A stretch of 43,623 nucleotides of DNA from Alphaproteobacteria bacterium (GTDB lineage Bacteria > Pseudomonadota > Alphaproteobacteria > Bin95). The stretch is taken from the NCBI GenBank assembly GCA_022826185.1, contig JAJDVH010000059.1:1-43623 (forward strand), read 5' to 3'. Position 1 is the stretch's first letter. Each line of letters starts with the position of its first letter. Both the position numbers and the translations under genes were made by a program. Under the pieces are notes generated by a model. It was not told the origin of the DNA, did not search any database, and was given only the letters and a program-made list of their open reading frames with translations. Below are positions 31,431 through 38,121 of the stretch, piece by piece.

Positions 31431-32702
31431 TTGCCGCCCGGCCCGGCTTTGCAATTCGATAACGGTCAGGAACCGGCCATCTACCGCGGCTGGTGGGTGG
31501 CCGCCGGCGGCTTCGTCATGGCGTTTTACGCCTGGGGTGTGGGGTTTTACGGCCACGGGTTCTACATGGTCGTTCTGGGCCGCTCGACGGGTTGGCCGGC
31601 CGCGACGCTTTCAAGCATGGTCGCGGGTTTCTGGCTTGCGAATGTCCTGTCCAGCCTCGCAATCGGGCGGCTGGCTGACAGGTTCGGCGCGCGCCCGGCC
31701 GTGGTTTACGGCGCGCTTGCCATGGCGGCCGGCTGTTTCGCGCTGGCGGCGTTCGAGTCCGGGTTCTTCAGGGCGGAGTGGCAGCTTTTCGCGGTCTTCG
31801 CCCTCATGGGCAGCGCCTATCCCGGCCTGGCGGCGATGGCCGTCAGCGCCTCCCTCGTCCCGTGGTTCAAGCGCCGGCTCGGGCTTGCTCTCGGCATCGC
31901 ATTGACCGGCGCGAGCGCGGGCGGCGCGGCCATACCGCCGTTGATGGCGTGGCTTTCCGCCCGTTACGGCTTCGCCTTCGCGATGACGGGGATCGGCGCC
32001 GCGCTGGTCCTCTCGCTGTTGCCGGTCGCGCTGTTGCTGGTCCGCCCGCCCGAAGAAGGGGAAGCCGCGAGGGAAATGGGAGCGCCCGCCGCTGCCGCCG
32101 AGGCGCATTGCAAACCGCCGACGGCGCGGTTTCTGGGGGATTTCCGCTTCTGGCTCGTTGCTTCGGCCTGCAGCCTGTCGCTCGGTGCGCAGGTCGGGTT
32201 CCTGATGCACCAGATACCGCTGCTGCAAGGCTCTCTCGGGCTCTCCGGCGCGGCCTATGCGGTCAGCGTCGCGGCCTTGAGCGCGGCTGCCGGGCGGTTC
32301 GTGCTGGGCGCGCTGAGCGGTCGTTTCTCCCTGCCGGCTCTCGCAGCCGGGTGCTACCTGATACAGGCGTTCGGCCTGCTGTTGCTGCTGGCCGGGGGAC
32401 CGTCCCTGCTGCTGTTTGCCGCCTCCGCGATCGCGGGCTTCGTCATTGGCTGCATCGTGATGCTGCCGCCGCTGCTGCTGGTGGACGGCTTCGGTGCGGC
32501 CGGCTACGGAACCGCATACGGCCTGACCGCGGCGGGCATGTTCGTCATGGCGAGCCTTGCGACGGCCGCGACCGGGTGGCTCTTCGACGCGACCGGCGCC
32601 TATGGCTGGCCGTTGATCGCGCTGGCGGCCCTGCATGTGCTGGCAAGCCTCCTGGTGCTGTGGCACGGTCGGCGGCAGCGAACCGGCGAGGCTGCGCGAT
32701 GA
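31431..32702 (+). CDS. MFS transporter (oxalate/monocarboxylate-like)
   Basis: This 423-residue protein has about 12 membrane helices. It shows the N-terminal box YRGWWVAAGGFVMAFYAWG, then AIGRLADRFGARPAVVYG, the loop 2-3 motif A of MFS, and WFKRRLGLALGIALTGASAG. These are seen in the OFA/monocarboxylate porter branch. No ATG precedes the first helix. TTG at 31431 (or 31449) must be used, and no strong ribosome-binding site is seen, so the true start is uncertain. The amidase start lies within its stop codon. Importer for the substrate of this cassette is the likely role. Confidence 0.82.
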   Translation: MPPGPALQFDNGQEPAIYRGWWVAAGGFVMAFYAWGVGFYGHGFYMVVLGRSTGWPAATLSSMVAGFWLANVLSSLAIGRLADRFGARPAVVYGALAMAAGCFALAAFESGFFRAEWQLFAVFALMGSAYPGLAAMAVSASLVPWFKRRLGLALGIALTGASAGGAAIPPLMAWLSARYGFAFAMTGIGAALVLSLLPVALLLVRPPEEGEAAREMGAPAAAAEAHCKPPTARFLGDFRFWLVASACSLSLGAQVGFLMHQIPLLQGSLGLSGAAYAVSVAALSAAAGRFVLGALSGRFSLPALAAGCYLIQAFGLLLLLAGGPSLLLFAASAIAGFVIGCIVMLPPLLLVDGFGAAGYGTAYGLTAAGMFVMASLATAATGWLFDATGAYGWPLIALAALHVLASLLVLWHGRRQRTGEAAR

Positions 32703-33943
32703 GCACCGAGTTTTCCCTGTCCGGACTCCGTGAGGCCTATGCGGACGGAAGCCTCGATCCTGTCGCGGTCACCGAGGCTTATCTCGACCGGATCGCGCAG
32801 GAGAACCCCCGGCTCAACGCCTATGTCGCCGTCACGGCCGAAGCTGCGCGGGAAGCGGCGGCGGCGTCTTCGGCGCGCTGGCGGGCAGGGCGGCCGGTTT
32901 CCGCCATCGACGGCGCTCCCATTGCGGTCAAGGACAATATCGACATGGCCGGCGCCGTCACCGCCAACGGCCTGCCGGGCGGGCGAAGGGCGGAGACGGA
33001 TGCGGCTGTCGTCGCACGGCTCCGCGAGGCGGGCGCGGTGCTGCTCGGCAAGACCAACCTGCACGAGGCCGCGTTCGGGACGACGACCTTCAACCCGCAT
33101 TGGGGCATGACCCACAACCCGCACCGGGAAGGCTGGACGGCGGGCGGCTCCAGCGGCGGCTCCGGCGCGGCCGTGGCGGCCGGACTGGCGGTTGCCGCGC
33201 TCGGCTCCGACACGATGGGCTCGATACGCCTGCCGGCGGCCTATTGCGGCTGCTTCGGCCTGAAGCCGACCCGGGGCGCGGTGCCGCTCGAAGGCGTCAC
33301 GCCGCTTGCGCCGAGCCTCGACCATGTGGGGCCGCTCGCCCGCACGGCCGAGGACGCGCTGGTTCTTCTGGAAGTTCTGTCGGGCCGTCCTCTGGGTCCG
33401 GAAGGAGACTGGCGTCCGGTCAGGCTGGCGGCGTTCGACGGCTACCCGCTCGAAGCGGAGGTCGAGGACACCTTGCCACCGCTCGACCTGCCGGCGCTCG
33501 ACTGGCCGGATTACGACCCCCCGGCGGCGCGCATGGCGGGCCTGCTGGTGATCGAGGCGGAAGCCTTCGCGGCGCTCGGCATCCCGGAGGGCGCATCGGA
33601 CGAATTGCGCGGCTATCTGGAGTACGGCGCGAAGCTGGCCCCGGAGCGGCTGACGGCGGCGCGCGAGACGCTCCGGCGTATCCGGGAGGACGCCGCCGAG
33701 CGCATCGGCGACGCCGTCATCGTCGCGCCGGTCGCGCCCTGCGGTCCGTTCCCGCGTTCGCGCAAGGCGCCCGCCAACCAGGGCGAATTACTGGCCTTCG
33801 CCAATCTCACCGGCCTGCCCGCGCTCGCCTTCCCCCGCGGACGGATGGCGAACGGCATGCCCTTCGCCCTGCAGGCGATAGCGGGGCCGGGGCGCGAAGC
33901 GGCGCTGGTGGCTGCGAGCCGGGTGTTCGGCCGGGCACTGTAG
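32699..33943 (+). CDS. Amidase (amidase signature family)
   Basis: This 414-residue amidase signature enzyme keeps the full triad: K78 in GAPIAVKDNIDMAG, S152 in TAGGSSGGSGAAVAAG and S175 in DTMGSIRLPAAYCG. The region between about residues 240 and 300 is short compared with typical members. The 4-base overlap with the MFS gene (ATGA) couples their translation. The C-terminal part, ANGMPFALQAIAGPGREAAL, is repeated almost exactly about 1.05 kb downstream in a decayed copy. Probably hydrolyses an amide imported by the upstream transporter; substrate not known. Confidence 0.92.
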   Translation: MSTEFSLSGLREAYADGSLDPVAVTEAYLDRIAQENPRLNAYVAVTAEAAREAAAASSARWRAGRPVSAIDGAPIAVKDNIDMAGAVTANGLPGGRRAETDAAVVARLREAGAVLLGKTNLHEAAFGTTTFNPHWGMTHNPHREGWTAGGSSGGSGAAVAAGLAVAALGSDTMGSIRLPAAYCGCFGLKPTRGAVPLEGVTPLAPSLDHVGPLARTAEDALVLLEVLSGRPLGPEGDWRPVRLAAFDGYPLEAEVEDTLPPLDLPALDWPDYDPPAARMAGLLVIEAEAFAALGIPEGASDELRGYLEYGAKLAPERLTAARETLRRIREDAAERIGDAVIVAPVAPCGPFPRSRKAPANQGELLAFANLTGLPALAFPRGRMANGMPFALQAIAGPGREAALVAASRVFGRAL

Positions 33944-33969
33944 CGTCCGGCCTCTATCTCATTCGTCAG

Positions 33970-33987
33970 CCCGGACTGCGGTCCGGG
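33970..33987. terminator. Perfect 7-bp hairpin after the amidase gene (terminator or repeat half)
   Basis: CCCGGAC (33970-33976) and GTCCGGG (33981-33987) pair around the loop TGCG, 27 bases after the amidase stop. No T run follows, so a classic intrinsic terminator is doubtful. The flanks (CGTCAG before, GATGAG about 30 bases after) resemble a worn copy of the palindromic repeat at 37983-38068. Both readings are possible. Confidence 0.4.
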
Positions 33988-34030
33988 ATAGGCTGCTGCG
34001 CTCCGGCGGGGATAACCGATGAGGTGGTAA

Positions 34031-34669
34031 TTATGGCCAAAGCGCTTTGATTTCCTCCCAACAAAGAATATTGTCCTCGACCATCCAACCTTGGCAAATC
34101 ATGAATTGAATTTGGTGATTGTTCTTGCTACCCCCTACAATGAATGGAATCACTTCTTTTTCGCATTTGCGCAGCCCAACGAGGATCTTGGCCATCACAT
34201 ATTGCCTGACAAGTTGATGCACGAGGACTAATTCGCTATTCGCACCGAAATTTGATTCGTGTTTAGCCTCTCCGATGAATAGATGATCGGGTGTTTCGAT
34301 AACAATATCTATCTCAGTGTTGATAAGATTGTTGCAAAGACTTTCCTCATTTCCTTTTGAAATATAATTCCCTGATTTCAATTCTCTAAATTTTCCATAA
34401 TCTTCAATACGATCACGAAGGCTTTGAAATTGAGAATCGTAACAATGGGCAAGCTTCTTCGGATTCCTATCCTCCTTGGTCTCATAAACATGATCTCGCA
34501 TTCCTTTCCAATACAACTCCAAACGGGCATCTGGAATTTCATTCTCCGGCTGCTTTAGAATCTTTTGCGCTAAATGAACGCCGCCATTTGAAAATAAAGG
34601 CGTGAAAAAGCGCGCCGTTTTCCAGTTTTCCGTCCTGTTGCGGATACCGAGAATGCCCTTGACGCCCAT
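34031..34669 (-). CDS. Stand-alone PD-(D/E)XK nuclease-like protein
   Basis: This 212-residue protein shows a restriction-endonuclease-like core: TEIDIVIETP with D121, and a following strand LFIGEAKHES with E134 and K136, i.e. D-x12-E-x-K. An acidic pair (E109, E110) lies just upstream and Q152 lies in the next helix. The gene is strikingly AT-rich against its neighbours: bases 34321-34380 hold only 18 G or C. This suggests recent transfer. ATG at 34669 was chosen; the frame stays open for 64 more codons through the amidase remnant without sensible sequence. Only a weak GGGA ribosome-binding site is seen. No methylase or helicase gene is adjacent. I do not recognise the exact family. Confidence 0.65.
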   Translation of the reverse strand: MGVKGILGIRNRTENWKTARFFTPLFSNGGVHLAQKILKQPENEIPDARLELYWKGMRDHVYETKEDRNPKKLAHCYDSQFQSLRDRIEDYGKFRELKSGNYISKGNEESLCNNLINTEIDIVIETPDHLFIGEAKHESNFGANSELVLVHQLVRQYVMAKILVGLRKCEKEVIPFIVGGSKNNHQIQFMICQGWMVEDNILCWEEIKALWP

Positions 34670-34741
34670 CTTTTGCCGTCTCCCTGTCGGTGCTGCGCGT
34701 CCGACATAAAGGAAAAATGCCTGCGAGGCCAAACGGTCATT

Positions 34742-34984
34742 GCCGGTGGGCGCCTGGGGAGGTGGGGCGCCGGCGCGGAACGCCTGCCGGCGGCCTGTTG
34801 CGGATACCCGCTGAAAGCGAATGCGGAAGACGCCATGCCGCCACTCGACCCGACGGCGCACTCCTTCGGCTGCGGTAGGGCGGCGAACGGCATGCCCTTC
34901 GCCCTGCAGGCGATAGCGGGGCCGGGACGCGAAGCAGCGCTGGTGGCGGCGAGCCGGATGTTCGGGGACCGGGTCGATGGCTGA
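34742..34984 (+). pseudogene. Remnant of a second amidase copy with three in-frame deletions
   Basis: The plus strand reads AGGRLGRWGA, then RLPAACCG, then YPLKANAEDAMPPLDPTA, then FGCGRAANGMPFALQAIAGP and on to a stop at 34984. Each piece matches the upstream amidase in order: AGGSSGGSGA, RLPAAYCG, YPLEAEVEDTLPPLDLPA and FPRGRMANGMPFALQAIAGP. Between pieces, blocks that in the intact gene cover VAAGLAVAALGSDTMGS, 64 codons and about 109 codons are missing, always in frame. Both catalytic serines and the lysine are gone, so it cannot be active. It sits next to the nuclease-like gene. Confidence 0.8.
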
Positions 34985-35651
34985 GATTACTGTTTGTTCA
35001 TAATTTCAGATTTATTTCCTGAAAAATAGATTGACTTCTCGGACATCTGCAACAATTTCAAGACCGGAGGAAGGGATCGGCATCCTGGGAGCCGCTCTGC
35101 TTCCTGCATTCGCGCCGGCGCGAAAAAAGCTCTGAAGAGCCGAAGGGAGATGTGCGTCCTGCGCTTGGGCCTCGCGCAGGCGCGGGCGCACCAGGGCGGT
35201 CAGGCACGCGGTTCGCGCCGCCGCGAAACGCGCGGGAGCGGGCGCGCAGGCGCCGGCGCGCATTATGCGCGAATCAGGGTCCCGCCGCGCCGGGCAGCCG
35301 GGCGGCGGGGAGAACAGAGCGAAGATGGATGGAAAGGAGAGACCCACGCCGAAAACGGAAAGAAGGGGGTACCCGGATGGAATGTCAGGAGCGGCGGCCC
35401 GAACCGACGGCTCCATGCCCGGAATGACTGCAGGCTATGCGCCGTCCGCATGCAAAACATGACACATCATGACACCGCGCGGCCCTCGCATGACAAAACA
35501 TGACATCTCATGACACTGTGCAGGAGGTCCTCCGGGCGGCATCTGTCGGAGGCCGGTCGCCGGCCCGTCGCTCCCGGGCGGCTCCTCGGGCAGCGGGCGG
35601 CCGGCGCGCGGCAAGTGGGCATCGCCGGCCGTCCGGGCTAAAGTCCCGCCG
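34985..35651. other. Gene-poor stretch between amidase remnant and CoA transferase
   Basis: The first 80 bases are AT-rich, like the nuclease gene. From about 35086 to 35420 the sequence is GC-rich with open frames on both strands (for example minus-strand 35012-35416), but none has a recognisable domain or convincing start site. Then comes the CATGACA repeat array (35454-35516), and after it very GC-rich hairpin-prone sequence up to the CoA-transferase start. No gene is called here. Confidence 0.6.
35454..35516. repeat. Five CATGACA repeats at helical-turn spacing
   Basis: CATGACA occurs at 35458, 35468, 35489, 35499 and 35509. The start-to-start distances are 10, 21, 10 and 10 bases, i.e. 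one or two helical turns. The array is built from a 22-base unit, AAAACATGACA followed by an 11-base TCATGACAC-type half, seen at 35454-35475 and 35495-35516 with two mismatches, plus one single copy between. It lies about 165 bases before the CoA-transferase start, so an operator is possible. Confidence 0.75.
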
Positions 35652-37912: not shown

Positions 37913-37982
37913 TGTTCCGGTTCCGAAGCTCATATCGTTTCGGTCCGGCGTGCCCGACAGCTATTGCGTCATGCCCTCATAC

Positions 37983-38068
37983 CGTCATGCCCGGACTTGT
38001 TCCGGGCATCTCCCTCGGGGCCATTGCGACGGCGGAAATGGATGGCCGGAACAAGTCCGGCCATGACG
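37983..38068. repeat. Long interrupted palindromic repeat element
   Basis: Two 28-base arms, 37983-38010 and 38041-38068, are reverse complements at 26 of 28 positions and are 30 bases apart. Each arm is itself a small hairpin (CCCGGA facing TCCGGG). This shape, beginning CGTCATGCCCGGAC and ending CCGGCCATGACG, is like the dispersed intergenic palindromes common in alphaproteobacterial genomes. It lies in the gap between the dioxygenase and nitronate monooxygenase genes. Confidence 0.8.
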
Positions 38069-38121
38069 AGTGGGGCGGCAGGGCCGAAGTCACGCGAACT
38101 TCAGAAGCGGGACAGTAGGCG

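Follow-up and report, generated by a model that had tools for sequence, protein, structure and literature searches.

A small, AT-rich reading frame lies alone among GC-rich metabolic genes in the window, the 43,623-nucleotide stretch of alphaproteobacterial DNA analysed here. The locus raises the question of whether this frame is a gene, how it came to its present position, and what its product does. An earlier note had described it as a transferred, solitary nuclease of the PD-(D/E)XK type that could serve in defence. In our reading, the gene encodes a stand-alone nuclease. Its most likely role, with a probability of about one half, is defence against phage or other foreign DNA.

A conserved gene of unusual base composition

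The gene encodes a protein of 212 amino acids, named P0001 here. Its reading frame on the minus strand extends from an ATG start codon at 34667-34669 to a stop codon at 34031-34033 (Table 1), which confirms the open reading frame reported in the earlier note. The search for a dedicated promoter of the gene returned three promoter-like matches, all of which are intragenic, and none upstream of the ATG. The nearest genes of the window encode an AMP-binding ligase, an MFS transporter, an amidase, a family III CoA-transferase, and a TauD dioxygenase; they are GC-rich and metabolic. The nuclease gene has a G+C content of 42%, whereas the remainder of the window has 69%. The lowest-GC 636-nucleotide stretch of the whole window begins at position 34021 and coincides with the gene. 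The low G+C count given in the earlier note, 18 of the 60 nucleotides at 34321-34380, was confirmed. The absence of a methylase, helicase, or specificity partner, also pointed out previously, holds among the window genes scanned.

The gene is real according to four tests: its relatives are open reading frames, an invariant motif is preserved, the structure prediction is confident, and the dN/dS ratio is low. Relative to a homolog from the same genus, with which the gene shares 169 codons, dN/dS is approximately 0.13-0.27. For most of the period after the two copies split, the nuclease sequence was therefore subject to purifying selection.

Table 1 Positions of the nuclease gene, its conserved motifs, and the surrounding amidase sequences in the window
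Feature	Position	Strand	Basis
Solitary CDS of the predicted PD-(D/E)XK nuclease (212 aa; protein P0001)	34031..34669	-	ORF, translation, relatives, alignment A3, AF2 model
Likely ribosome-binding site AGGGAGA, 9 nt 5' of the nuclease ATG	34679..34685	-	Read from sequence
NRTENWKT signature, N11-T18; N11, R12, E14, N15, W16, T18 invariant in 18 sequences	34616..34639	-	A3
First catalytic motif E119-I120-D121, start of core strand 120-125	34307..34315	-	A3, AF2 model
ExK catalytic motif G133-E134-A135-K136, on strand 129-135	34262..34273	-	A3, AF2 model
H151-Q152-L-V-R155, start of core helix 152-166; H151, Q152, R155 invariant	34205..34219	-	A3, AF2 model
Segment absent from the empty site of G400: amidase tail, nuclease and its upstream region, amidase remnants	33931..34965	.	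Same-genus genome comparison
Amidase gene beside the insertion; last codons GRAL* match nuclease-bearing G401, not G400	32699..33943	+	
Amidase remnants: pieces of 32, 59, and 110 nt	34772..34965	+	

A candidate family of stand-alone nucleases

Scans of Pfam, PADLOC, NCBIfam, and PHROGs with the single sequence of P0001 gave no credible match, and PDB sequence searches gave chance-level matches only. The PADLOC 2.0 scan returned zero families at an E-value of 1 or better, and P0001 is thus a member of no catalogued anti-phage system. No match above the curated cut-off was obtained for the NERD domain (PF08378), to which P0001 has no match at an E-value of 1 or better. Weak NERD matches were found in seven of 16 relatives (best E-value 0.013), and some relatives match NERD together with other nuclease domains weakly.

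Among 84,980 species genomes scanned, 15 relatives of P0001 were identified, which belong to Alphaproteobacteria, Gammaproteobacteria, Chloroflexota, Acidobacteriota, and Bacillota; whole-genome surveys provided three more. Alignment A3 contains 18 sequences, and the relatives are 37-52% identical to P0001. Beyond the N-terminal signature (N11, R12, E14, N15, W16, T18), the residues invariant in A3 include E51, L52, W54, G56, D59, Y102, E119, D121, G133, E134, K136, H151, Q152, and R155. The residues E119, D121, E134, and K136, which correspond to the D...(D/E)xK catalytic residues of the PD-(D/E)XK superfamily, are preserved in 18 of 18 sequences; the numbering of D121, E134, and K136 in the earlier note is correct. 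The NRTENWKT-like signature is common to all relatives and is missing from a truncated copy of the same genus (locus L002). A search of the literature for the motif was negative. In the family tree, the window copy has no resolved position among copies that are mostly from Chloroflexota, and the tree does not assign a donor phylum.

We read P0001 and its relatives as a putative new family of stand-alone PD-(D/E)XK nucleases, part of a known superfamily and absent from the profile libraries searched, based on sequence comparison and structure prediction. Such a compact nuclease family, missing from standard libraries, can be searched for with the signature NRTENWKT...GEAK...HQLxRQY.

Predicted structure of P0001

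The AlphaFold2 model of P0001, calculated using alignment A1, has a pLDDT of 86.3 and a pTM of 0.88. The core is composed, in the expected order, of strands 120-125 and 129-135, helix 152-166, and strand 172-178. The catalytic residues E119 and D121 lie where the first strand begins, and E134 and K136 where the second ends. The motif is located on two adjacent strands that are followed by a helix and a strand, as in the PD-(D/E)XK core fold, and the block-mean pLDDT exceeds 90 over most of the core. The model thus contains a restriction-endonuclease-like core. The N-terminal 30 residues include several of the most conserved positions of the protein, yet they are modelled with only moderate confidence (block means 64-72); this segment would fit a binding surface.

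In Foldseek searches against the PDB and viral structures, no match reached an E-value below 0.001. In the structure-comparison list, nearly all top places are occupied by PD-(D/E)XK nucleases. The matches include NucS/EndoMS with a Z-score of 7.1, VC1899 with 6.4, BspD6I with 6.2, and Can2 and Card1 with 5.0-5.7. SgrAI, Bse634I, FokI, McrC, and XisH are also among the top matches. All single matches have Z-scores of 7.1 or less, which is below 8, and values of such size can individually be due to chance. Despite the low single Z-scores, many separate members of one superfamily agree, and chance is therefore unlikely. P0001 very probably has the nuclease fold; the invariant motif, the confident model, and the dominance of PD-(D/E)XK nucleases among the structure matches all support the original assignment.

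Recent insertion at an amidase gene

The nuclease gene was inserted recently beside the amidase gene. In the same-genus genome G400, the amidase gene (97% identity) is directly followed by the CoA-transferase gene, and window segment 33931-34965 is absent. Another same-genus genome, G401, also carries the nuclease gene next to its amidase. The last 110 nucleotides of the amidase remnants in the window, together with the sequence after them, correspond to the native end of the amidase in G400 (MFGDRVD). Since the amidase tail matches G401 and the end of the remnants matches G400, the nuclease most likely arrived with a foreign amidase tail through recombination at the amidase. The further amidase pieces at 34772-34859 are scrambled and resemble older remnants. 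The clean empty site in G400, combined with a nuclease gene whose AT content exceeds that of its flanks in all 19 loci, by 12 points on average, identifies the gene as horizontally transferred, as the earlier note had proposed from base composition. The gene debris that it had also noticed is real (34772-34965), but does not indicate a defence context, being amidase sequence left by the insertion. We rejected the idea that the debris marks a defence island, as its end matches the empty site of G400.

The copy in G401 (locus L002) lacks the first 43 codons and adjoins a palindromic repeat. The amidase of this relative is interrupted, at 10874-11013 of L002, by what we take to be the end of an IS66-type transposase. 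Empty and occupied alleles are thus present within one genus, and gene gain and decay are directly visible.

Two groups of repeats were observed in the vicinity. A REP-like palindromic repeat related to GTCATGCCCGGACTTGTTCCGGGCATC is located at 37969-38069 of the window; in L002, the N-terminal part of the nuclease gene has given way to a similar repeat. A cluster of CATGACA/TGTCATG-type repeats precedes the CoA-transferase gene at 35453-35521, and a similar cluster follows the amidase in the same-genus genome G402.

The mode of insertion bears on the possibility that P0001 is a selfish, self-mobilising nuclease that cuts empty sites, similar to a free-standing homing endonuclease. The gene moves without a recombinase gene, and the window copy was acquired via homologous amidase flanks, as such an element might be. 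However, a site-specific homing nuclease is expected at one kind of site, whereas the insertion sites of the relatives differ and most of them lack flank similarity. We consider this explanation improbable.

Patchy distribution across phyla

The nuclease has a patchy distribution that crosses phyla. Of the 398 genomes sampled from the phylum, one carries the gene, as do two of the eight from the genus. In samples of Chloroflexota, carriers make up two of 400 genomes in the phylum of G484, and full-length carriers six of 247 in the order of G492. Three of 38 genomes of one order carry the gene, and another survey gave one full-length copy in 194. Two genomes contain two divergent copies each. 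Three Chloroflexi (L003, L006, and L007) share the same position of the nuclease, between what are presumably genes of a GMC oxidoreductase and a cytochrome P450. Scans of phage and plasmid collections and two scans of IMG/VR viral contigs found no relative, and a phage-borne origin is for this reason not claimed.

Two confirmed carriers, SAR202 bin90 and bin22, originate from the sponge Aplysina aerophoba. According to a published study, restriction-modification and toxin-antitoxin genes are enriched in the symbionts of this sponge (PMC5649159). The sample names of the COS3, IRC1, CAR3, and APA bins suggest further sponge sources; no confirming paper was found.

A DUF2779 gene upstream of some copies

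A DUF2779 gene is located directly upstream of the nuclease, on the same strand and with a gap of 23-46 nucleotides, in loci L004, L009, L012, and L075. The domain was called by Pfam in the first three loci and by a family-search match at that place in L075. The flanks outside the DUF2779-nuclease pair are unrelated, except for a 650-nucleotide stretch common to L009 and L012. In the order of G492, DUF2779 is encoded by five of six nuclease carriers and by 29 of 241 non-carriers (Fisher p=2e-4, a value that ignores relatedness within the order and overstates the strength of the association). DUF2779 also occurs without the nuclease and is absent from the window genome. No partner is shared universally across the nuclease loci, and most copies have no DUF2779 gene beside them. 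The term solitary, which the earlier note had applied to the nuclease, is therefore appropriate for the window and most relatives, but not for the four relatives that lie directly behind a DUF2779 nuclease gene. Among the neighbours, DUF2779 is a recurrent partner. We tentatively suggest that the nuclease could be the second component of an undescribed two-gene system with DUF2779 directed against foreign DNA, and that the window harbors a solitary, separately mobile version of the effector; we regard this extension as doubtful.

The same gene pair could be read in a different way. The strongest rival to a defence effector is a nuclease of DNA processing or repair, which together with DUF2779, a combination of Cas4-like and DEDD-type exonuclease parts, would trim or resolve damaged or recombining DNA. 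Two DUF2779 loci adjoin what we take to be a DNA polymerase IV gene. The mismatch-repair endonuclease NucS/EndoMS is among the closest structure matches of P0001, and DUF2779 belongs to a clade of presumed 3'-5' exonucleases among RNase H-like proteins and contains the PD-(D/E)XK-like domain DUF83 (PMC3985635). A very patchy spread, recent transfer, and alien G+C content would, however, be unusual for a housekeeping repair gene, and most copies do not adjoin DUF2779. A role in repair is possible, but rather unlikely.

Defence genes near the nuclease

Restriction-modification or TmtA (Tiamat) genes are located within two genes of the nuclease in four of 17 loci. Locus L011 contains a Type ISP restriction enzyme near the nuclease, and L075 a fragment of one. 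In L013 (3027-9861), genes for type I specificity and methylase (HsdM) subunits and a KAP ATPase (candidate system PDC-S20) are followed by the nuclease at the contig end; no type I restriction subunit was seen in this stretch. In L077 (4306-7608), a full-length TmtA (Tiamat) gene, detected by PADLOC with an E-value of 8e-174, is 423 nucleotides away from the nuclease. Several, or most, of the loci have ordinary metabolic neighbours, and single neighbours can be wrong, as genes were called by simple ORF picking with codon-position GC. The neighbourhoods of the homologs are not consistently housekeeping operons. In 18 control loci from carrier genomes, treated in the same way, no restriction-modification model was present among the 25 listed of 28, and generic PADLOC models such as PDC-S01, Orf5, and HEC-06 match control loci too. 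Adjacency to defence genes in four of 17 loci, compared with no restriction-modification model listed for the 18 controls, is a borderline difference and at most suggestive of a role in defence.

Beside one copy, region 11100-13844 of L008 encodes a possible PD-(D/E)XK protein (PDDEXK_4 just below the cut-off) and a protein of the uracil-DNA-glycosylase family. The same region presumably also holds an endonuclease/exonuclease/phosphatase-like protein.

The neighbourhoods also bear on two other functions. The nuclease could be an orphan type II restriction endonuclease, the methylase of which was lost or is located elsewhere in the genome. The small size of P0001, its PD-(D/E)XK core, and the presence of FokI, BspD6I, SgrAI, and Bse634I among the structure matches are consistent with such an enzyme. 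No cognate methyltransferase adjoins the gene in the window, though, and none recurs in the relatives: among 17 loci, a methylase is adjacent only in L013, and L011 and L075 have the Type ISP enzyme or fragment instead. We give this origin a slim chance. Equally, the protein might be a toxin-like nuclease that is controlled by an antitoxin, either unlinked or small. HEPN-nucleotidyltransferase or HEPN-type genes near the copies in L011 and L075 would agree with a toxin, but no small partner gene recurs and the window copy is alone, which makes a toxin highly improbable.

A previous study provides a measure of caution. Of 24 transcription units that were remotely homologous to defence proteins but had a low predicted defence score, a set that included six PD-(D/E)XK nucleases, only one conferred phage protection (PMC13092281). 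A PD-(D/E)XK domain alone therefore does not predict defence.

Proposed function of P0001

P0001 is predicted to be a compact, stand-alone, metal-dependent PD-(D/E)XK nuclease. Its catalytic site would be formed by D121 and E134-x-K136, probably with the assistance of E119 and of E14, which is positioned beside the N-terminal helix. The substrate would be DNA. The conserved NRTENWKT segment and the insert of residues 26-118 are candidate parts for recognition. We hypothesize that the protein acts as a single-gene effector against incoming phage or foreign DNA, and that in some Chloroflexota-type lineages it would act together with the DUF2779 nuclease encoded just upstream. If P0001 is a defence effector, it would represent a one- or two-gene system outside classical defence islands, present across distant bacteria, including some sponge symbionts.

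Comparison with known nucleases

P0001 resembles the PD-(D/E)XK superfamily in the strand-strand-helix-strand order of its core and in the D...ExK catalytic residues. The new family differs in its invariant NRTENWKT-like N-terminus and in an insert of approximately 90 residues between helix 16-25 and strand 120-125, and P0001 matches none of the Pfam, NCBIfam, PHROGs, or PADLOC families.

The defence protein Shedu (SduA) shares with P0001 the concept of a lone PD-(D/E)XK protein. The fold similarity is weak (8ps4, Z-score 3.9; 8ti9, 3.7), P0001 has no match to the Shedu profile in PADLOC, in which zero families reached an E-value of 1, and the flanking parts are different. The nuclease domains of Can2, Card1, and VC1899 are similar in structure (Z-scores 5.0-6.4). 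Unlike these proteins, the 212-residue P0001 lacks the CARF half that senses cyclic oligoadenylates, as no CARF domain was matched in Pfam, and no CRISPR genes were seen beside it.

DUF2779 (PF11074) is a different protein of approximately 450-550 residues, in which a Cas4-like part is combined with an RNase H-like exonuclease; it is linked to the nuclease through its position directly upstream in four loci and its co-occurrence in one order. The C-terminal domain of NucS/EndoMS is the best structural match of P0001, with a Z-score of 7.1 over 102 residues and 12% sequence identity. P0001 is devoid of the N-terminal NucS domain, and whereas NucS/EndoMS is conserved within lineages, the new family is patchy and has been moved horizontally.
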